The position numbers and the translations under genes are program-made. Of a stretch of 64,000 nucleotides of DNA, positions 30,659-40,330 are shown piece by piece. Within the stretch, counting starts at the first letter, position 1, and each line of letters opens with the position of its first letter. Below the pieces are notes generated by a model, which was not told where the DNA came from, ran no database searches, and saw only the letters and a program-made list of their open reading frames with translations. The DNA is taken from positions 93,803-157,802 of the forward strand of contig JAHEGI010000002.1 of assembly GCA_024639785.1 (NCBI GenBank). Direction: 5' to 3'. This DNA is from Cryomorphaceae bacterium (GTDB taxonomy: Bacteria > Bacteroidota > Bacteroidia > Flavobacteriales > Schleiferiaceae).

Positions 30659-32866
30659 CTAACGGTATAATACAACGGTTCCGGTGTATTCCACGGGAGA
30701 GTCTCCGAAGTCTACAATGAATAGATGCCACGAATAGACATCTTGCGGGCTTTCGGGCCCTTTGTTTTGAATTTGGCCATTCCACTCTTCATTGGCGTTT
30801 CGCGACTGAAAGACCACTTGACCCCAGCGATTGGTGATGACGAGATTGTATTCCGTAAATCCTGTCACAAAGGGTCGGAATAAGTCATTGCGACCATCGC
30901 CATTTGGGGTAAAGGCGCTCGGGGCCCAAATATTTAGGACGGGATTGATGCGAACCCAGAGGCCCAGCGTATCCCAACAACCGAACTCATTGACAGAAAT
31001 TCGTTTGACCTCGAAGTTGCCCGTATCGCTGTATTGATGTGCAAAAAAGGAGGTCTGAGTATAGAGGGTAGAATCCCCCATATCAAAGAAATATTGCTCC
31101 AAGTGACTGAAATTGCTTGCATCGACAGTCACTACAGGGGTGTAAATACTCGTAGTCGATGGACTCACATTAAAACTACTTGTCGGCCGGGGATTGACTA
31201 AAATGGCCCCAGGGTAGGACTGATAAATTGTGTCAATGCATCCTTCATCTGTCCACATCCACAATTTCACGTCGTATGTGCCTGCTTGCAAATAGGTGTG
31301 CGTCGGCATGGCTGAATGGCTCGTGTCGCCATCCCCAAAGTCCCATAGATAAAACAGGGGAGTGGAGGCCGAAGCCATCGGATCAAAGACATGGGTATAA
31401 GGCTCACAGCCCACAATCCCTTGGAAATCTGCATCAACCCTAGGCCGCTGATACACCCGAATGGTGTCGTAAACAGTTTCTTCGCAGGCTTTGGATTTGA
31501 TATAGAGTTGAATGGGATAAGCCCCGGGCTGATTGAAGGTGATTGGAGGGGGCGTTTCACCGCTATAGGTGGCCAAATTGGCATCGCCTGGCTGGCCAAA
31601 GGCCCATTCGATCGTGGCGTCGGGGTACCAAAATCCCGTAGGAATGAACTGGAAATTTTGTTCATCCGCACAGACTCCACCCGACCATTGAATGCCTGCG
31701 TTAATTGGCGGATAAATATGAAAAGCAACTTGATCCGTATCGGCACAGGGCCAACCGGGATTGGCGATCAGCGTGACGAGGTAAACCCCAGTGTCATTGA
31801 ATGTGAATGTGGGATTGGGCAGATTTGATGTATCCGTGGTCGAATTAGGGTCTCCGAAATCCCAATGAAAGAACGTGGCGTTATAGCTGTCTTCTTGAAA
31901 GGGTACGGTCGTACCAATGCAGAGTTGCGTTGGGTCGTCCACTTCGGATATAATATCGGCCCAAATGGAAGCTTGGCAGGAGGTTACATTGAATTGATAA
32001 TCCCGTCGAATCGTATTAAGGAGCACCCCATTGCGCCATTCCTCCACACAGATTGCCATGACATACTGCCCGAGCACAGTGATTTTACCCGCCAAAAATC
32101 CTGTTTGTGGGTTCATCGACACAGGTGGGTTTCCCGGGATAGGGTTGGACGTGGTATTGGGCGACTTGTAGGGAACTACGGTGTAGGGCGGGGGAGCTGG
32201 TGGGCTCGGTTGTGGGGTGTTGAAACCAGTTCCATTGCCCTTGCCGCCCCCGTGGTATAATCCACAGAGTTCGTAATACAGCGAATCCCCATCCGGATCG
32301 GTACAGGTGATGGGAATGTTGAGGTTTTCCTGGCTGCAGAGTACAATGGGCGGGGTAGAGTCCCACTGCGGACTGCTGTTGCAACTATCATTCGGTGGAA
32401 TCCGGGTGGTGATCGTCATGCCCCAATCATCCGGGGTGTTGATGTTGGTGATCGTCGCATTTCGGCAACAACGTTGATAGGAAATCACATAGCCCGTGGA
32501 TCGGGCGGGGAGGGTCTGTAGCGTAATGTAGTTTGCGTATTCCGTGCAGACATTAGGTGGGGCTTGAAGGCAGGGATTTCCTGTATTCGCAGGGAGGGGA
32601 ATCGTCGGACCTTTATTTACCTGCAGGTTGTATAAAAGCTGTCCAGACACGCCATCATAAATACCAATGGAAGCAGTTTGGTCCAATTGTGCCCCGGTAG
32701 AATTGCAATCGCGGTAAACGATTAATTTGATTTGGTACAGATTGTTGCCCGTGCAGGTATACGTCATTTCCCCGCCGACGAGGTGGGCTGCTTGGAGGCT
32801 GTATGCCCCAAAGAAAATCCCTAGGCAGAGCCATAGGCCGGAGAGGCCATAGCGCGCCTTAGGCAT
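30659..32866 (-). CDS. PKD-repeat secreted protein with type IX (type B) C-terminal domain, 'AHLVGGE' family
   Basis: A 735-residue surface or secreted protein. Signal peptide about 1-27, cleaved before AHLVGGEMTYTC. A Cys-rich N-terminal domain (about 28-270) carries IKLIVYRDCNSTG and SYQRCCRNATI. At least three PKD-like modules follow (FFHWDFGDPNSTTD, FYLWDFGDGDTSHS, FFDMGDSTLY). The last 85 residues are the gliding-associated C-terminal domain, IWAPSAFTPNGDGRNDLF to TGTVVLYR. The start MPKARYG overlaps the GHMP kinase stop by 8 bases, so it is coupled to mevalonate genes. It shares its N-terminal domain with the truncated gene at 63224. Confidence 0.9.
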   Translation of the reverse strand: MPKARYGLSGLWLCLGIFFGAYSLQAAHLVGGEMTYTCTGNNLYQIKLIVYRDCNSTGAQLDQTASIGIYDGVSGQLLYNLQVNKGPTIPLPANTGNPCLQAPPNVCTEYANYITLQTLPARSTGYVISYQRCCRNATITNINTPDDWGMTITTRIPPNDSCNSSPQWDSTPPIVLCSQENLNIPITCTDPDGDSLYYELCGLYHGGGKGNGTGFNTPQPSPPAPPPYTVVPYKSPNTTSNPIPGNPPVSMNPQTGFLAGKITVLGQYVMAICVEEWRNGVLLNTIRRDYQFNVTSCQASIWADIISEVDDPTQLCIGTTVPFQEDSYNATFFHWDFGDPNSTTDTSNLPNPTFTFNDTGVYLVTLIANPGWPCADTDQVAFHIYPPINAGIQWSGGVCADEQNFQFIPTGFWYPDATIEWAFGQPGDANLATYSGETPPPITFNQPGAYPIQLYIKSKACEETVYDTIRVYQRPRVDADFQGIVGCEPYTHVFDPMASASTPLFYLWDFGDGDTSHSAMPTHTYLQAGTYDVKLWMWTDEGCIDTIYQSYPGAILVNPRPTSSFNVSPSTTSIYTPVVTVDASNFSHLEQYFFDMGDSTLYTQTSFFAHQYSDTGNFEVKRISVNEFGCWDTLGLWVRINPVLNIWAPSAFTPNGDGRNDLFRPFVTGFTEYNLVITNRWGQVVFQSRNANEEWNGQIQNKGPESPQDVYSWHLFIVDFGDSPVEYTGTVVLYR

Positions 32867-33752
32867 GAAGAACAACTTCAGCCCACGGAAAAGCAACGAG
32901 ATCAGCACGTTGGTGAAGGTAATCCAAGGCACCTAGATTAGGATCGCAAAACAAGGCAAAGTCCCCGCCCCAGGCGCCTAAGCTCTTGCCGCCTGCGTGA
33001 GCGCGAAAGGGGCTGTGCGCGGTGAGCGCAAAGACAGGGGAGGTCCGTTGTAGATGTTGTTCCATGAACTGCTCATGTGCCACAAGGATTGCAGACCACT
33101 CGGATGGCGTGGAAGCCTCGAGCAATTTTTCGGTCAGCCGGGTGGTATGAGCCACAGCCCTAAGCACATCCGTCGTTCCGAGGTAGTGCTTCACTTCGAC
33201 TTGACTGTCTTGCTTTTGGCCCAAATACGCTAAATAGAGATGGTCTGTAGGCCAGTTCTCCATCGAGACTGGTCGAATCTCCGCAGAATCCCCCTGACGA
33301 CGGTAGAGGATGGCACCCTGGGCTTGAGCACAGGCAACATCGTAGCCGGAACCTTGTGAAACTCGGAAGTGTAAATCAAGCGCCGCTACCCCGATCCATT
33401 GAGCAATCAAAGAAATGACGGTAGACGAACTGCCCCATCCCCAATCACGCTCAAATTCAAGGACGGTGCGAATGCGGCCCGTAGGCATCTCACTCAGGCC
33501 CGCTAAAGCAAGGGCTTCTTGGATGCAGCGCTTAAGCCATGCCAATGAGGGATCCCTGTCTACATAGCCCGATAACCAGATTTGCCCGTGACAATCCACG
33601 GCTTCCCAAAACAAGGGGCCGATGTTCGATTCGACATACAGGTGTTGGCCTTTTTGCGTAGGCACCGCCAAGGCCCAAGCGCCATGGAGTACGGTGTACT
33701 CAGAGCTTAGGAGCAATTTCCCTCGGGCAAATAAGTGTGTGGCGGGCTCCAT
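32859..33752 (-). CDS. GYDIA-type GHMP kinase (mevalonate pathway)
   Basis: A 297-residue GHMP-superfamily kinase. Segments: ARGKLLLSSEYTVLHGAWALAVP at the N-terminus, the ATP loop RDWGWGSSSTVISLI and GSGYDVACAQAQGAI, matching the GYDIA-type kinases of Bacteroidota that accompany HMG-CoA reductase. It should phosphorylate mevalonate or phosphomevalonate in isoprenoid synthesis; which step is inferred. The ATG lies 3 bases after the HMG-CoA reductase stop. Confidence 0.88.
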   Translation of the reverse strand: MEPATHLFARGKLLLSSEYTVLHGAWALAVPTQKGQHLYVESNIGPLFWEAVDCHGQIWLSGYVDRDPSLAWLKRCIQEALALAGLSEMPTGRIRTVLEFERDWGWGSSSTVISLIAQWIGVAALDLHFRVSQGSGYDVACAQAQGAILYRRQGDSAEIRPVSMENWPTDHLYLAYLGQKQDSQVEVKHYLGTTDVLRAVAHTTRLTEKLLEASTPSEWSAILVAHEQFMEQHLQRTSPVFALTAHSPFRAHAGGKSLGAWGGDFALFCDPNLGALDYLHQRADLVAFPWAEVVLHA

Positions 33753-33755
33753 CCT

Positions 33756-35087
33756 TTAATGCGCTCCGGGGACGGGCAGCCCGCGCAAGTCATAAAAAGC
33801 CTTGACGACGTCTGCATGGTGTGGGACGAGTTTGGCAAATTGGGCCGCTATAATTTCTTTTTCGGTTTCGGTGGCACCGAGTTGATTCAAAATATTCAAG
33901 AGGTGCATCTTCATATGCCCTTTTTGAATTCCGGTGGTCGTGAGGGCGCGCAGGGCGGCGAAATTTTGAGCCAAACCCGAAGCCGCAACGATCATCATGA
34001 GCTGGTGTGCGCCTGGATTGCCGAGCATTTCGAGTGCCATTTTCACCAAGGGGTGAAGTTGTGTGAGGCCTCCGACCGTGCCCAGTGATAAAGGAATCTC
34101 AATCCAAAAGCGGAAGAGGCCATCTTCCACGGAGCAATGGGTCAAACTTCGGTATTGGCCATCGCGTGCAGCGTAAGCATGGCACGCAGCCTCCACCGCA
34201 CGGAAATCGTTGCCCGTAGCCAAAATCACCGCATCGATGCCATTCATAATGCCTTTGTTATGAGTGGCTGCACGGTAGGGTTCCACTTCTGCGATGCGCA
34301 CGGCACGCTGAAATTTATGGGCGAATTCCATCGCCGTCATGTCGGTGCCTTCGACCATGTCTTCGAGTGCACAATGCACTTCGCAGCGGACGAGGCATTC
34401 GGGCGTGTAATTCGAAAGAATGCACATCACCACGTCTAAGTGGCTTGCAGCGGTGGTTTCCGCTTGGGCCACCCCACGTTTGAGGACCTTGGCCATTTCC
34501 TCCAAACAGGAATTGATGAAATTGGCCCCCATGGAGTCGCGCGTGTCAAAACGAACTTCCACCTGATAGTACTCCGCCAACGCCGCGGTCTTATCCACGA
34601 GTTGAATGTCCAAAATGCCGCCTCCACGCTTTTCCATATTCGCCGTGATATGGGAGGTGGCTTGCTTGAGTTCAACAGAAAGTTCCGCAAAAACAGACTT
34701 TAAAGCCTCCGTATCTCCATCGAACATGAAGTGGATGTGGCCAATCTTCGTGGAGGAAATGATCTCAGAGTGAAAGCCCCCGCGCGCCATCCAAAACTGT
34801 GCAGATTTCGCCGCAGCGGCCACGACAGAACTTTCTTCGATGGCCATGGGTAGGGTATATACCTCTCCATTTATCAAAAAGTTCGGGGCTACGCCAAAGG
34901 GTAAAAAGTAATTTGCCACCGTATTCTCAATGAACTCGTCATGACGCTTTTGAATTTGCGCATCGGAATGCATGTAGCTCTGCATAAGGGTTAAACCCTC
35001 AGTGGGATTCGCCAAATGGGCCTTGGCCAGCCATTCCATTTTGGCTTGCTTCGATAGCTTTGAGAATCCTTTAATACGTTTTTCCAT
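33756..35087 (-). CDS. mvaA: hydroxymethylglutaryl-CoA reductase, class II
   Basis: A 443-residue class II HMG-CoA reductase that converts HMG-CoA to mevalonate. N-terminal GFSKLSKQAKMEWL is typical of the class. Other family elements are ENTVANYFLPFGVAPNFLING, EESSVVAAAAKSAQFW (catalytic Glu), DTRDSMGANFINSCLEEMA (dinucleotide/Lys-Asp region) and NKGIMNGIDAVILATGND. With the coupled GHMP kinase it indicates a mevalonate route to isoprenoids. A TAccTTTG box lies 19 bases upstream. Confidence 0.95.
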   Translation of the reverse strand: MEKRIKGFSKLSKQAKMEWLAKAHLANPTEGLTLMQSYMHSDAQIQKRHDEFIENTVANYFLPFGVAPNFLINGEVYTLPMAIEESSVVAAAAKSAQFWMARGGFHSEIISSTKIGHIHFMFDGDTEALKSVFAELSVELKQATSHITANMEKRGGGILDIQLVDKTAALAEYYQVEVRFDTRDSMGANFINSCLEEMAKVLKRGVAQAETTAASHLDVVMCILSNYTPECLVRCEVHCALEDMVEGTDMTAMEFAHKFQRAVRIAEVEPYRAATHNKGIMNGIDAVILATGNDFRAVEAACHAYAARDGQYRSLTHCSVEDGLFRFWIEIPLSLGTVGGLTQLHPLVKMALEMLGNPGAHQLMMIVAASGLAQNFAALRALTTTGIQKGHMKMHLLNILNQLGATETEKEIIAAQFAKLVPHHADVVKAFYDLRGLPVPGAH

Positions 35088-35106
35088 GGGTCAACAAGAA
35101 TAGCTA

Positions 35107-35114
35107 CAAAGGTA
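35107..35114 (-). promoter_or_regulatory. -7 box of the mevalonate operon (TAccTTTG)
   Basis: Perfect TACCTTTG on the minus strand, 19 bases before the HMG-CoA reductase ATG. It is expected to drive mvaA, the GHMP kinase and the coupled PKD protein gene. Confidence 0.6.
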
Positions 35115-35182
35115 ACGCGCGCCACGAGCCTTTGTTTTAGCAAAGTCCATGGCGCGCGTTGGCGGATTTAGCCTTCGGCGGC

Positions 35183-36835
35183 TCAGCTCCAGAAGAACGC
35201 GTAGAGCGCCGAGAGGATTAACAAAAGGGCAAATGCGCCAATGTTGTATATGCCATCGGTTTTGAAAGTCTCCTTGGTGATGTCGATGCCTTTTTCATCG
35301 TTGGCCCCACGATTTTGGCGGTAGGAGATGAACGCAATGATACTCATCGTCAACAGGGTGGTCAACCCCATTTGGTCCAAGAAGGGCAAATCGACAAATA
35401 AGGAAGAACTCGACCATCCCTTCGGTGCCACTTTGAAGTACATGGCGATGGGGATGGACGCGAGCGCACCGGTGATCGCCGCTTTATTGGTGGTCTTCTT
35501 CCAGAATAACCCTAAGACGAATACCGCGAGAATTCCAGGGCTCACTACGCCGGTATATTCCTGAATGAACTGGAAGGCTTGATCGATGCCACCCAACAAT
35601 GGGGCCATAATCGAAGCGATAATCAATGCGACCACAGCCGAAATTCGGCCCATTGACACGGTTTGACGATCATTGGCGTCGGGCTTGATGTAGGGTTTGT
35701 AAATGTCCATCGTGAAGATGGTTGCGGTAGAATTCAGCATGGAAGCTAACGACGATACAATGGCGGCGGTCAAGGCAGCAAAGGCTAATCCCTTCAAGCC
35801 AGTGGGTAAAAACTGTAGCAACCATGGGTAGGCCTTATCTGCCTGATCCATGCTGGGCATATTGGTCTGAGCCACATCACCTAGACCCGCTAAAATCTCC
35901 GGGTCATTAATCATGACATAGGCTGCAATGCCTGGGATGACGACGATGAGAGGCAAAATGAGTTTGATTCCCGCAGCCAGGAGGATTCCCTTTTGAGATT
36001 CCCGCAGGGATTTGGCGGCCAAGGTGCGCTGAATGATGTATTGATTGAATCCCCAATAATAGAGGTTAGCTACCCACATTCCGCCCACGAGAACCCCAAT
36101 GCCAGGCAAGCTAATGTATTCGGGGTTGCTTTTGTCCAATATCATCGCAAAACGCTCGGGTGCAGCATCCATGATGGTGGTCATGCCGGCCAAAAAGCCT
36201 TCACCCCCGGAAACAGCATCCAAGGCGAGGTAGGTTGTGACCAAACCGCCGATGGTCAAGAAGATGACCTGGATCACATCCGTCCATGAGACCGCGGAAA
36301 GTCCACCGTAGAGAGAGTAGGCCGCAGCAAATACTGCGAGTCCAAGAACCCCATACATCATCGGAATCCCCATGATGGTCTCCAGAGCCAAAGATCCCAG
36401 GTAAAGTACCGAGGCGAGATTTACGAAGACATACAGGGCGATCCAAAAGACGGCCAGAATAGTTTTGAGATTGGTTGAAAAACGTTTCTCAACGAATTCG
36501 GGTATGGTGTACAGACCTTTTTCAATAAAAATGGGTAGAAAGTACTTGCCCACAATAATCAAGGTCAGAGCGGCCATCCATTCATAGGAGGCGATGGCCA
36601 AACCAATCTTGAATCCAGATCCAGACATGCCAATAAATTGCTCTGCGGAAATGTTGGCCGCAATCAGCGAAGTGCCTACCGCCCACCAGGGGAGGGATTT
36701 GCTCGCCAAGAAGTAGTCTTCTGCGTTTTTTTCGTGGCCTTTTTTGTCGCGGGAAACCCAAAGGCCTACGCCTAGGATCAAGAGGGCATAGCCCATGAAG
36801 ATGGCGTAATCAAGGAATTCAAAGGTGCCGGTCAT
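35183..36835 (-). CDS. sodium/solute symporter family (SSS), probable Na+/sugar symporter
   Basis: A 550-residue inner-membrane symporter with 13-14 helices. The N-terminal block DYAIFMGYALLILGVGLWVSR, the SWWAVGTSLIAANISAEQFIG-like region (about 45-70) and GFNQYIIQRTLAAKS are typical of sugar-transporting SSS proteins (SglT-like). It should couple Na+ entry to uptake of a sugar or related solute. The gene lies 117 bases downstream of a Nudix-type regulator on the same strand, which in Bacteroidota often controls sugar use, so the two are likely functionally linked. The separating region contains a G-run cluster. Confidence 0.93.
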   Translation of the reverse strand: MTGTFEFLDYAIFMGYALLILGVGLWVSRDKKGHEKNAEDYFLASKSLPWWAVGTSLIAANISAEQFIGMSGSGFKIGLAIASYEWMAALTLIIVGKYFLPIFIEKGLYTIPEFVEKRFSTNLKTILAVFWIALYVFVNLASVLYLGSLALETIMGIPMMYGVLGLAVFAAAYSLYGGLSAVSWTDVIQVIFLTIGGLVTTYLALDAVSGGEGFLAGMTTIMDAAPERFAMILDKSNPEYISLPGIGVLVGGMWVANLYYWGFNQYIIQRTLAAKSLRESQKGILLAAGIKLILPLIVVIPGIAAYVMINDPEILAGLGDVAQTNMPSMDQADKAYPWLLQFLPTGLKGLAFAALTAAIVSSLASMLNSTATIFTMDIYKPYIKPDANDRQTVSMGRISAVVALIIASIMAPLLGGIDQAFQFIQEYTGVVSPGILAVFVLGLFWKKTTNKAAITGALASIPIAMYFKVAPKGWSSSSLFVDLPFLDQMGLTTLLTMSIIAFISYRQNRGANDEKGIDITKETFKTDGIYNIGAFALLLILSALYAFFWS

Positions 36836-36856: not shown

Positions 36857-36893
36857 GGGGGCTAGGGAGTTTGGGAGTTCGTGGGTTTGGGGG
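36857..36893 (+). other. G-quadruplex-like motif (five G-runs)
   Basis: On the plus strand five runs of 3-5 G occur in 37 bases (36857-36861, 36865-36867, 36873-36875, 36883-36885, 36889-36893) with loops of 3, 5, 7 and 3 bases. This meets the classical G3+N1-7 rule. It lies between the Nudix regulator and the symporter, on the strand that is template for both. Confidence 0.6.
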
Positions 36894-36904
36894 TTACTGG
36901 CAAT

Positions 36905-36950
36905 CAGTGCAAACGAACCAACGATCAAACAAACCAACGAACAAACAAAG
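36905..36950 (+). repeat. low-complexity CAAA/AACG-type direct repeats
   Basis: The stretch is built from imperfect reiterations of CAAAC, AACGA and CCAACGA, for example AACGAACCAACGATCAAAC then AAACCAACGAAC. It contains almost no T and sits directly after the G-run cluster in the regulator-symporter gap. Its origin is unclear. Confidence 0.5.
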
Positions 36951-36952
36951 CA

Positions 36953-37684
36953 TTAGAGTTCAAAGTGAAAGCCACGCTTAGAGAGCGCATCGTAGCGGGC
37001 GGGGTCAAATCGGTAGAGGCGTGCGGGACGGTGACGAACCGCTTTTTGAGTTTTGTCCAAGGCGATGAGCAGGTCCATCGCGAGGATTTTCTTTCGGAAG
37101 TTGGCCTTGTCAAATTCGGTATTTAACAAAGTCTCATACAAATGTTGAAGATCGGCGAGTGTGAACTCCTCAGGAAGTAGCTCAAAGCCAATGGGCTTCT
37201 GGCGCACTTTGGTTTGAAGACGCTCAAGGGCTGCATTAAAGATCTCCTTGTGGTCAAAGGCCATATCGCCCAAATCCTGGATCGGCGTCCACTGTGCCGC
37301 GGTCGCCCAAGAAGAGGGGCGCGGGTTGTAGTCCCCGATTTTAAGTAGAGAATAGTAGGCAATGGTTGCAACGCGGCCGAGCGGGTGGCGGTTCACGCTG
37401 GCAAACGTTTGCAACTGCTCGAGGTAGACGTCTTTCAAACCCGTCAAGTCGCGCAGCACGCGTTGAGTGGCGGTTACGGCGTCTTCATGTGGGTGGACCA
37501 AGTCGCCCGGAATCGCTTGGTAGCCAAGGTAGGGGTCCGTGCCCCGCTCAATAAGCAAAACCTTCACATCCTTCCCGTCGTAGCCAAATACCACGCAGTC
37601 CACGGAGATGCCAAAAGAAAAGTACTCGGCGATGTCCGGGTGGTTAAGGGTATTTACGGGGCTGTAGTCGGGTTGGGCAGGCAT
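36953..37684 (-). CDS. Nudix-domain transcriptional regulator (NrtR/AraR-like)
   Basis: A 243-residue protein with an N-terminal Nudix fold (about 20-155) and a C-terminal winged helix (about 165-240; EFTLADLQHLYETLL, FRKKILAMDLL). The Nudix box is degenerate: GDLVHPHEDAVTATQRVLRDLTG lacks the REUXEE acidic cluster, so hydrolase activity is unlikely. This architecture is that of NrtR and of Bacteroides AraR, which use the Nudix domain to sense ADP-ribose or a sugar. Next to a sodium/sugar symporter gene, a sugar-responsive repressor is the best inference. Two AGTACT palindromes lie in its promoter region. Confidence 0.88.
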   Translation of the reverse strand: MPAQPDYSPVNTLNHPDIAEYFSFGISVDCVVFGYDGKDVKVLLIERGTDPYLGYQAIPGDLVHPHEDAVTATQRVLRDLTGLKDVYLEQLQTFASVNRHPLGRVATIAYYSLLKIGDYNPRPSSWATAAQWTPIQDLGDMAFDHKEIFNAALERLQTKVRQKPIGFELLPEEFTLADLQHLYETLLNTEFDKANFRKKILAMDLLIALDKTQKAVRHRPARLYRFDPARYDALSKRGFHFEL

Positions 37685-37728
37685 TTCAAATGAGGCGGTA
37701 TAGGGATCGGTCCTTTGTTATGGTCTAA

Positions 37729-37734
37729 AGTACT
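37729..37734. promoter_or_regulatory. candidate operator half (AGTACT) in the regulator leader
   Basis: Palindrome in the context TAAAGTACTA, downstream of the predicted transcription start of the Nudix regulator. It is 53 bp from the second copy, about five helical turns, so a dimer of dimers could contact both on one DNA face. Confidence 0.45.
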
Positions 37735-37767
37735 AAAAGAAAATCGGATTTTCCTATCAAAGGATGT

Positions 37768-37798
37768 CAAATATACATTATAGTACTTCTCACCAAAA
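37768..37798 (-). promoter_or_regulatory. promoter of the Nudix regulator (TTTTG-N18-TAtaTTTG) with AGTACT in the spacer
   Basis: Minus-strand -33 TTTTG (37794-37798) and -7 TATATTTG (37768-37775) with an 18-base spacer. The palindrome AGTACT (37782-37787) lies inside that spacer. The coding ATG is 83 bases downstream. A repressor bound to the spacer copy would block polymerase, suggesting autoregulation together with the symporter gene. Confidence 0.6.
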
Positions 37799-37963
37799 TA
37801 AACAGCGTTGGAATTCACGCCGGTCCTAAAATTCGTTCCCCAGGAAATTTACAAGGGCAAAGTGGTCGAATTATGCGGTTTTTAACGGTTGCAAAAAATA
37901 TGGGCAGAGAATTTTAATGTAAGATGTACACTTATTAAGAATGTTCCTCGTAGGGGGTACATC
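37799..37963. other. intergenic, no gene seen
   Basis: Between the regulator promoter and the small membrane gene. No open frame with family features, no clear hairpin terminator and no repeat beyond short AT-rich words were found. Confidence 0.5.
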
Positions 37964-38335
37964 CTACACCAACCCACCCGCGCGGGCCTCGGTGCGCTGA
38001 AACAGCCAAGCCCCCAACGCATAGCTGAGCACATCCCAGGCATCGCCGGTAAACCGCGGGTCGAACGACGGAATCCAGGCCTCAAAGGCCACAGAAGTAG
38101 CCGCCCAGGCACCGACAATAAATGCAGGGTTCCACCGAAAAGCGGGCTGCCAAAAACGGATCATCCAGGCAGGTAGGCCCAGAGCGACGAGTAAAAAGAG
38201 AAAGGTATCTAGGTAGGAATCCGCCCAAGGATGCGATACACCCAGAGCAATAGCCCCTTGATGCAGGACAAAAAGCACTAGGCTGCCCGCAAAAAGGCGT
38301 GTTGGCGTTAAACGGCCACCCAGTAGGCCATCCAT
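37964..38335 (-). CDS. small polytopic membrane protein (VanZ-like)
   Basis: A 123-residue protein with about four hydrophobic helices (LFAGSLVLFVLHQGA, TFLFLLVALGLPAWMI, FIVGAWAATSVAFEAWI, DVLSYALGAWLF). The pattern of a helix ending in FEAWIPSFDPRFTGDAWDVLSYALGA resembles small VanZ-like proteins of Bacteroidota; its function is unknown. The ATG at 38335 is chosen because the longer frame lies fully inside the upstream gene. It overlaps that gene by 28 bases. Confidence 0.65.
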   Translation of the reverse strand: MDGLLGGRLTPTRLFAGSLVLFVLHQGAIALGVSHPWADSYLDTFLFLLVALGLPAWMIRFWQPAFRWNPAFIVGAWAATSVAFEAWIPSFDPRFTGDAWDVLSYALGAWLFQRTEARAGGLV

Positions 38336-38614: not shown

Positions 38615-40063
38615 CTAGCGTCGCATCATGTTTTTTTGCCACGCGTGAATGGTTCGTTTGCGTCGTTTGTGGATGCGCCAAGGACCACCAAGCTTAATAT
38701 CATCTACATAGATCCATTCGCTTTGGGCGCCCAATGCGTCAAAGTCCACCATGAGGTATCCATGGTTTCTGGTATCGACGTATTCCAAATTCCGATTACT
38801 CAGCCACAGTAAAAAACCTGCAAAACGCGCCAAAGCTTCCGAGGTGAATTCATTGAAATTCGTAGAGGTAATCGATGGAGTGCACAATTCTACATAACCC
38901 GGACCTTCAAAGGCCCATGAGCAATGGGAGTCCCCTGTGAGTACCACGATGGGCGCAGTTTGTTTGAAGGTTTGTTCTAAGCTGTTTCGCTCATCCGCAT
39001 AGCCATCCCAGGCATCCAAATTGAATCGTTCAAGTCGATCGCTTGGGATGATGCCCAAGTTCAATTCCGAAAAGATGACTTGATTTCCGATCACTCGGTA
39101 AGCAGCGGCGCTCTGACTCAGCTCGGTTTCGAGCCATTCGTGCTGCTCCGGGCTCATCATGTGGTGTTCACTCGCAGGCAAAAAGCGATCCGCCTCCTGA
39201 CTTACCGCTTTACTTCGACCATCCAAACGCGTTTCAATCATGTACAAATCCAACATGGCGCCGAATCGAAACTTCCGGTAGCCCTTAGAATATTCGGGCC
39301 GGATCGGCATCCACTCTTCGTAGGCTTTCATCGCGGCAATTCGGCGCACCTCGTAGTTGCCCTCCTCTTCTTGATGATTCTGAGCTCCCGTGCTAAAACT
39401 GTTGTTTGCAATTTCATGATCGTCCCAAATGGCAATGACGGGATGCGCGGCGTGAAAAGCTTGAAGATCCGGATCCTTTCGGTACTGGGCATAGCGTGTC
39501 CGATAATCTTGGAGGGTTACAATCTCATGCGGGGGTTGATGGAGCCTCCCTGGCACTTTCCAGCGGGCATCCCAACGTTCGTATTCATAGATATAATCTC
39601 CCAAATGGACGACCGCATCTACCTGTTCTTCGCCCGCGAGAGCGGCATACCCATGAAAATACCCCGCTTCATAGTGGGCGCAAGAAACTACGCCCAAGCG
39701 AATGGCTTGAGTAGATAAGGGGTGCGGACTCGTCTTTGTCCGACCAATATCCGAGGCGATTTCACGCCACCAAAAACGATAATAGTAGGTGGTACTTGAC
39801 TCCAAGCCCCGAGGAATAGCCTTGACCGTACCCCCTTGAGCCGGAGAGGTCGTACAACTGCCGCTAATAAGTATGTGTTGAAAGTCGATGTCCGTCGCCA
39901 CTTCCCAGATCACAGATTCTTCCCGCTCGATCCCTTCCAACGCGGTCCAAATCACCACGGATTCAGATTGAGGATCGCCTGAGGCCACGCCATAGCTGAA
40001 CTGAGCCCAGAGATGGAATGGACTGGAAGCGATGAGGAGGCTTATCCAAAGAACGTATTTCAC
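38615..40063 (-). CDS. PhoD-like alkaline phosphatase D family metallophosphoesterase
   Basis: A 482-residue secreted phosphatase of the alkaline phosphatase D family, using Ca/Fe ions. Signal peptide about 1-20 (LWISLLIASSPFHLWAQ). PhoD blocks: GVASGDPQSESVVIWTAL (N-terminal domain), VVHLGDYIYEY (metal ligands), VIAIWDDHEIANNSF and VLTGDSHCSWAFE. The start is GTG at 40063, which directly begins the signal peptide; the longer frame runs backwards through tRNA-Phe and its terminator and is therefore wrong. The C-terminus lacks a type IX signal domain. Confidence 0.92.
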   Translation of the reverse strand: MKYVLWISLLIASSPFHLWAQFSYGVASGDPQSESVVIWTALEGIEREESVIWEVATDIDFQHILISGSCTTSPAQGGTVKAIPRGLESSTTYYYRFWWREIASDIGRTKTSPHPLSTQAIRLGVVSCAHYEAGYFHGYAALAGEEQVDAVVHLGDYIYEYERWDARWKVPGRLHQPPHEIVTLQDYRTRYAQYRKDPDLQAFHAAHPVIAIWDDHEIANNSFSTGAQNHQEEEGNYEVRRIAAMKAYEEWMPIRPEYSKGYRKFRFGAMLDLYMIETRLDGRSKAVSQEADRFLPASEHHMMSPEQHEWLETELSQSAAAYRVIGNQVIFSELNLGIIPSDRLERFNLDAWDGYADERNSLEQTFKQTAPIVVLTGDSHCSWAFEGPGYVELCTPSITSTNFNEFTSEALARFAGFLLWLSNRNLEYVDTRNHGYLMVDFDALGAQSEWIYVDDIKLGGPWRIHKRRKRTIHAWQKNMMRR

Positions 40064-40121
40064 GGGCCGCAAGAAACGAAAGCAGATTGAATTGGATGTT
40101 AATCTTTTCCGAATTAAATGC

Positions 40122-40153
40122 AAAAAAAAGCCCCGCTCCGGAGAGCAGGGCTT
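40122..40153 (-). terminator. terminator of tRNA-Phe
   Basis: On the minus strand AAGCCC (40153-40148) pairs with GGGCTT (40133-40128) and GAGC-type inner pairs extend the stem with one mismatch and a 4-base loop. Eight T follow (40122-40129). It lies 11 bases after the tRNA 3' end. Confidence 0.82.
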
Positions 40154-40164
40154 CACTTTGGAAG

Positions 40165-40237
40165 TGGTTCGGGGCGGGATCGAACCGCCGACACATGGAT
40201 TTTCAGTCCATTGCTCTACCAACTGAGCTACCGAACC
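40165..40237 (-). tRNA. tRNA-Phe (anticodon GAA)
   Basis: A 73-base tRNA read on the minus strand. Acceptor GGTTCGG pairs with CCGAACC, D-arm GCTC...GAGC, anticodon stem ATGGA/TCCAT with loop CTGAAAA giving anticodon GAA, variable loop GTGTC, T-arm GGCGG/CCGCC with TTCGATC loop, discriminator A. The 3' CCA is not encoded (CTTC follows), so it is added after transcription. Confidence 0.97.
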
Positions 40238-40330
40238 ATTCAAAATGGAGGCGCGAAGATAATCACAATTGTTGATTGTCTGCTAGGGCTTTTTGCGCAA
40301 AATTTTTATGATATCTAGGGTGGAAATGTT

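Follow-up and report, generated by a model that had tools for sequence, protein, structure and literature searches.

The window (the whole 64-kb stretch of DNA that was analysed) encodes a Nudix-type regulator, and the intergenic DNA at 37685-37964 carries two copies of the palindromic hexamer AGTACT. This locus raises the question of which DNA element the regulator would read, which genes it would control and which ligand would release it. The first-pass annotation had proposed that a Nudix-type, sugar-sensing regulator is autoregulated through two AGTACT elements at its promoter; comparative genomics supported two operators on the promoter of such a regulator, whereas AGTACT as the unit was not supported. 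From the promoter comparisons, the predicted operator is TRGTR-N5-YACYA, and the hexamer is not the functional unit. The features concerned are the following.

35183..36835, minus strand: vSGLT-like sodium/glucose-galactose symporter, 550 aa (vSGLT 2xq2, E 2.4e-239)
36953..37684, minus strand: NrtR/AraR-family regulator, 243 aa, with a degenerate Nudix domain and a winged-helix domain (Pfam, BtAraR match)
37718..37738, no strand: predicted operator site 2, TTTTAGTACTTTAGACCATAA on the minus strand (PWM 20.8)
37729..37734, no strand: downstream AGTACT, made up of AGTA from the half-site and two bases of the site 2 spacer (sequence)
37768..37775, minus strand: -7 promoter element TATATTTG, consensus TAnnTTTG (sequence)
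37778..37798, no strand: predicted operator site 1, TTTTGGTGAGAAGTACTATAA on the minus strand (PWM 20.1)
37782..37787, no strand: upstream AGTACT, made up of TACT from the half-site and two bases of the site 1 spacer (sequence)
37794..37798, minus strand: TTTTG, a -33-like element separated from the -7 element downstream by 18 nt (sequence; weak motif)
37916..37932, no strand: predicted operator of the paralogue type, AGTGTACATCTTACATT, the third site and the one most distant from the regulator (pattern match, conservation in L004)

The regulator and its neighbours

In the regulator, Pfam found a NUDIX domain at residues 25-149 (4.2e-8) and an NrtR_WHD domain at residues 166-226 (1.3e-27), each above its cut-off, which is the architecture of the NrtR family, together with an AraR_C match (2e-15). 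The best solved relative (E 4.6e-46) was BtAraR, BT0354 of Bacteroides thetaiotaomicron (PDB 5bs6, 5dd4, 5ddg, 5deq; PMC4666351), likewise an NrtR-family protein with a Nudix-like sensor and a winged helix-turn-helix domain; this match is enough to fix the fold. Shewanella NrtR (3gz5/3gz6; E 2.8e-26) shares the Nudix and winged helix-turn-helix domains, and the Nudix box is impaired. BtXylR (BT0791), likened here by description, is another NrtR-family protein of Bacteroidota for a monosaccharide pathway, but is linked to xylose genes (PMC3878776). Pfam and the sequence itself confirmed the degenerate Nudix domain that the first-pass annotation had noticed: against the signature GX5EX7REUXEEXGU, as quoted in PMC4666351, the regulator reads D-LVHPH-E-DAVTATQ-RVLRDLTGL, with Asp replacing the first Gly and V, D and L replacing the three Glu of REUXEE. 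The DNA contacts K179, N181, K184 and R205 of BtAraR are kept, whereas Arg180 is replaced by Ala (30 rows) or Gly (5 rows) and K204 by His or Tyr in 35/35 orthologue rows; all six residues are described in PMC4666351 as absolutely conserved among AraR orthologues. On these comparisons and those below, the protein belongs to the NrtR/AraR family, has a shifted operator and probably controls a glucan regulon. A homologue at E 1e-20 was present in 77/88 genomes of the family, and L118 encodes a regulator 93% identical over residues 1-95. Our search of the open-access literature listed no paper that describes control of laminarin or starch use by a regulator of the NrtR/AraR type.

The sugar symporter said to adjoin the regulator is indeed the next gene, and its residues 6-549 align with vSGLT of Vibrio (2xq2, 3dh4), whereas its host belongs to another phylum and its transport is predicted. 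The sugar site of vSGLT, which we take to comprise Q69, E88, N260, Y263, K294 and Q428, is identical at all six residues between the symporter and 3dh4, and 2xq2 carries a change at K294. The order of regulator and symporter is conserved in nearly all genus loci, and the two genes probably form one operon; the 117-bp gap between them holds no operator-like site at PWM ≥8. At 36866-36949, the gap contains short G/T-rich and C/A-rich tandem repeats with the units GGGAGTTT and CAAACAAACCAACGAA. The 443-aa and 297-aa genes downstream of the symporter (32859-36835) presumably resemble HMG-CoA reductase and GHMP kinase, and the gene order regulator, symporter, 443, 297 and 735 aa is seen in the window and in eight genus loci. 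On the other side of the regulator, the sole tRNA of the window, tRNA-Phe (GAA; 40164-40237), overlaps the 5' end of the 542-aa ORF 38615-40243, and the PhoD-like gene therefore probably starts further in than this ORF. A contig deposited as Aquiluna sp. (L090; Actinomycetota) encodes a 97% identical regulator and is probably misbinned.

The palindrome before orthologous regulators

The promoters of orthologous regulators in the family have in common a 21-bp palindrome, TTATAGTA-N5-TACTATAA. An unseeded palindromic Gibbs sampler run on 21 orthologue promoters returned it with a score of 378 (reached by 1/4 restarts, the others ending at 218-239), compared with 190-211 in four mononucleotide-shuffled sets; the L061 promoter was the one of the 21 without a credible site. 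In a direct count of the T-type pattern TRGTV-N5-BACYA, 17/24 orthologue promoters carried it against a shuffle mean of 0.16 and a maximum of 1, a count that is not blind, as this pattern and the paralogue-type one below were chosen after the sites were known, and that covers a set with near-duplicates (L010, L012 and L014; L011 and L013). The set excludes L032, a near-duplicate of L031, and also L015-L022, L026 and L028-L030, where the regulator lies close behind another gene. The position weight matrix (PWM) was built from 19 sites including both window sites, so the window scores are favoured by construction; after these two, the next best score in the 64 kb was 12.9.

Within the genus, the palindrome was found at PWM ≥13.6 in all 12 promoters where the regulator is preceded by an upstream region of its own (L001, L004-L014), some of these sites having trained the PWM. 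Three of the 11 promoters other than that of the window (L005, L006 and L008) have the proximal site, as a 21-mer near-identical to site 2, and L005 and L006 additionally have the upstream site; in each of the remaining eight, a single site reaches PWM ≥10. Both window sites are imperfect, with TGGTG and GACCA halves. Site 1 is the sole match of TTNTRGTRNNNNNYACYANAA at 0 mismatches in the whole 1.8-Mb genome, and site 2 is among three further places at 1 mismatch to the degenerate pattern. The geometry is that of the BtAraR operator, whose core GTGTT-N5-TACAC also has two 5-bp halves around 5 bp and which is described as occurring in tandem ahead of the BtAraR operon, with 3 or 42 nt between the copies (PMC4666351); the half-site here is TAGTA, not GTGTT, and the two operators lie 60 bp apart from centre to centre. 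We rejected a transfer of the motif to Saprospiraceae orthologues, where the T-type pattern was found in 0/11 promoters and the PWM gave one weak site (L099) in 11 loci.

Predicted mechanism and regulon

As the first-pass annotation had claimed, one hexamer lies between the -33 and -7 elements, where TATATTTG and TTTTG flank the upstream copy with a spacer of 18 nt. TAnnTTTG is placed at -12 to -5 in PMC9723704, which sets +1 near 37763 and the downstream AGTACT in the leader, past +1 as annotated. Site 1 spans about -35 to -15, over the -33 element and the spacer that separates it from the -7 element; the centre of site 2 lies near +36, within the leader. The arrangement recurs in 18/24 orthologue promoters, where TAnnTTTG starts 9-25 nt downstream of a site centre.

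We consider it likely that the regulator is an autoregulated, sugar-relieved repressor of glucan use that acts through two operators, with glucose as the most likely effector. The inactive Nudix domain would sense a monosaccharide, most likely glucose. In its absence, site 1 would be occupied by one dimer, which would lie over the -33 element and the -33/-7 spacer, and site 2 in the leader by a second; acting together, the two dimers would shut off the regulator-symporter promoter. Sugar released from laminarin-type or starch-type glucans would then bind and the dimers would leave the DNA, which would derepress not only the regulator and the vSGLT-like symporter but also the loci of the SusC/SusD-GH16 and SusC/SusD-alpha-amylase types with the same operator. 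The family, the palindrome, its position on the promoter and its recurrence before glucan genes are computational results; binding by the regulator, repression, the identity of the effector and any cooperation between the sites are what we infer. Sugar sensing is suggested by the kinship with BtAraR, by the vSGLT-like symporter and by the glucan loci. Glucose is our best guess, given that the symporter is of the glucose type and that the alpha- and beta-glucan loci, both of which carry the operator, share glucose as their product. Conceivably, the regulator could also act as an activator at some sites. The predicted operator, regulon and effector reduce the question to a gel-shift experiment.

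The palindrome recurs before glucan genes. In the whole genome at E ≤10, the 19-site model had three matches, i.e., both window sites and C9:8181, which was absent from the training set and is followed by a locus that encodes a secreted CBM48-like protein, SusC, SusD, a PKD protein and a GH16 enzyme. A second model, built without the window sites and without the site of L005, L006 and L008, matched 21/22 genus genomes; in the genome of the window it listed C9:8181 and C16:77715, the latter preceding SusC, SusD and an alpha-amylase-type gene, and the two window sites themselves fell below its E 10 limit. Loci were kept for only a part of the 58 matches listed. Among these 27 genus loci, of which L168 and L192 represent a single site, 24 are placed ahead of the regulator (6), a starch-type SusC (10) or a laminarin-type SusC (8), and the other three lie elsewhere, before unrelated or unidentified genes. 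L189, which ends before SusC but holds the gene upstream of it, is counted here as starch-type; loci are called laminarin-type on the basis of 33-36% identity with SusC of C9 and, in the case of G050, G051, G052 and G056, of a cluster with GH16-like and GH3 genes ending in the regulator. Across nine promoters of starch-type SusC genes, conservation extends over the operator block but not to the DNA upstream of it.

The picture in other genera (13 genomes, 27 loci kept) is more mixed, with 10 sites before the regulator (mostly training sites), three before a second SSS gene, four before a GH2-like gene, two at PKD-like genes, one before a SusC-like gene and seven before other genes, unrelated or unidentified. 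From our comparison of neighbourhoods (40 stretches minus L044 and L071, where no regulator was found), orthologues often lie inside laminarin-type clusters, and the annotated neighbours include the GH16, GH30, GH3, GH2-like, GH17, CBM48, SSS and MFS families. At L073:6747-6767, a strong operator-like sequence, TTTTTGTATAAAATACTATAA (PWM 18.6), stops 2 bp short of a 436-aa gene, presumably for an ammonium transporter; this site may be due to chance.

Paralogues and competing readings

The 1.8-Mb genome encodes three homologues of the NrtR/AraR type, the window regulator and the paralogues C5 and C1. C5 is 46% identical to the window regulator, and the promoters of its group in the family carry another palindrome: GTGTW-N5-WACAY was found in 17/20 and the T-type palindrome in 0/20. 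These are direct pattern counts, which replaced Gibbs sampling for C5-type promoters; the Gibbs result was discarded, as it apparently represented conserved coding DNA of a divergent gene. In the genome of the window, AGTGTANNNNNTACACT (AGTGTA-N5-TACACT) has 8 places at 1 mismatch, compared with 1 for a control pattern. Two of the eight lie before the C5 paralogue and one at 37916-37932, the third site of the regulator's upstream region; one shares two bases with the operator of the starch-type SusC, one precedes another SusC-like gene (C7:43053, named from its N-terminus), and three are elsewhere. In another genus (L196-L199), TGTR-N5-YACAC lies 18 bp upstream of the regulator's T-type operator, as observed in L023, L024, L025, L027 and L031; here, too, the two site types adjoin each other.

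The two palindromes go along with a difference at residue 180. Arg180 intercalates DNA in BtAraR (PMC4666351); it is lost in the orthologues of the window regulator and kept in both paralogues of the same genome. The window regulator, without Arg180, would read TAGTA-N5-TACTA and the C5 paralogue, with Arg180, GTGTA-N5-TACAC. Since the starch-type SusC promoter and the upstream region of the regulator carry both site types, glucan use would be under combinatorial control by two sugar sensors. That duplicated NrtR/AraR regulators in one cell read two related palindromes, identical in geometry, for combinatorial glucan control, the loss of Arg180 having re-specified the operator once duplication had taken place, is a tentative proposal about which we are more doubtful than confident. 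On the sequences compared, the link between residue 180 and the half-site is a correlation, and L119, a more distant relative with Ala180, counts against it in having no PWM site ≥14. Arg180 is kept in four Saprospiraceae rows, and GTGTA-N5-TACAC was found in 2/11 Saprospiraceae promoters (L091, L096), the broader NTGTW-N5-WACAN in 3/11 with a shuffle mean of 0.38 and a maximum of 3, which is only suggestive of a use of GTGTA-type sites in that family. With Arg180 and GTGT half-sites in one member and Ala180 and TAGT half-sites in the other, the paralogue pair would make it possible to examine how the specificity for the operator is set by the unusual intercalation of an arginine known from BtAraR.

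The presence of three homologues bears on whether the T-type palindromes are bound by another protein, e.g., C5 or C1, and not by the neighbouring regulator. NrtR-type operators share their geometry, which makes cross-binding likely, and a paralogue-type site does stand at 37916-37932; the promoter counts, however, follow the regulators, with the T-type in 17/24 promoters of the orthologue group against 0/20 of the C5 group, which has GTGTW-N5-WACAY instead. We regard binding by another protein as unlikely.

A related matter is whether the ligand is L-arabinose, or of the ADP-ribose/NAD type, as in characterised members of the family. In BtAraR, L-arabinose is hydrogen-bonded by R34, R86 and H131 (PMC4666351), all three of which are conserved in 35/35 orthologue rows and compatible with a pentose; the NAD-metabolism NrtR equivalog NF050029 also matches the regulator at E 1e-38. 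Its score of 133.2 bits is, however, far under the cut-off of 400, by which we rejected an NAD-metabolism NrtR identity; and unlike Shewanella NrtR, no NAD genes were seen nearby in the examined loci. Three further residues differ from BtAraR in 35/35 rows (F36 to Thr, Ala or Val; G48 to Asp; F49 to Leu). BtAraR is linked to arabinose genes, whereas the identified operator-linked genes here are glucan-type, none being of the arabinose or NAD type, with most of the unmatched genes unannotated. Clustering with arabinose utilisation genes was not seen among the annotated orthologue neighbours, and for this and for the differing DNA-contact residues an arabinose regulator was rejected. We consider either ligand improbable and retain a glucan-derived monosaccharide, most likely glucose, as the predicted effector.

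The hexamers themselves could have been the operators, each bound by one dimer and phased by 53 bp. Both copies are present as annotated, at 37729-37734 and 37782-37787 with starts 53 bp apart, and a chance origin of the pair is unlikely: AGTACT occurs 10 times in the 64-kb window against 4.56 expected, a pair within 60 bp arose in 2/200 dinucleotide shuffles of the window, two copies within 37685-37964 arose in 1/5000 dinucleotide shuffles of that stretch, and no other palindromic hexamer has two copies there. L005 has two AGTACT, and L006 and L008 one each. However, a motif search upstream of the orthologues, which had been suggested at the outset, found the hexamer not conserved and the larger palindrome conserved. 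AGTACT lies within 130 bp of the start in 4/12 genus promoters, and the other eight have the 21-bp palindrome all the same; on this comparison, AGTACT as a conserved unit was rejected. The register of the hexamer within the palindrome also differs between the sites: it starts at offset 11 of site 1 but at offset 4 of site 2, and each copy hence comprises part of one half together with spacer bases. The distance of 53 bp had been read as five helical turns on the same face; this did not hold, as the centres are 60 bp (5.7 turns) apart here and 67 bp apart in L005 and L006, which leaves a fixed phasing unsupported. Operators made of the hexamers are thus very improbable, and the palindrome is preferred.

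That AT-rich promoter DNA merely looks like a palindrome is scarcely credible: the intergenic DNA is AT-rich and AGTACT just about twofold over-represented in the window, but the top PWM score in 2000 shuffles of the intergenic stretch (18.6) stays below the observed 20.8 and 20.1, and the palindrome recurs before the same SusC genes in many genomes.
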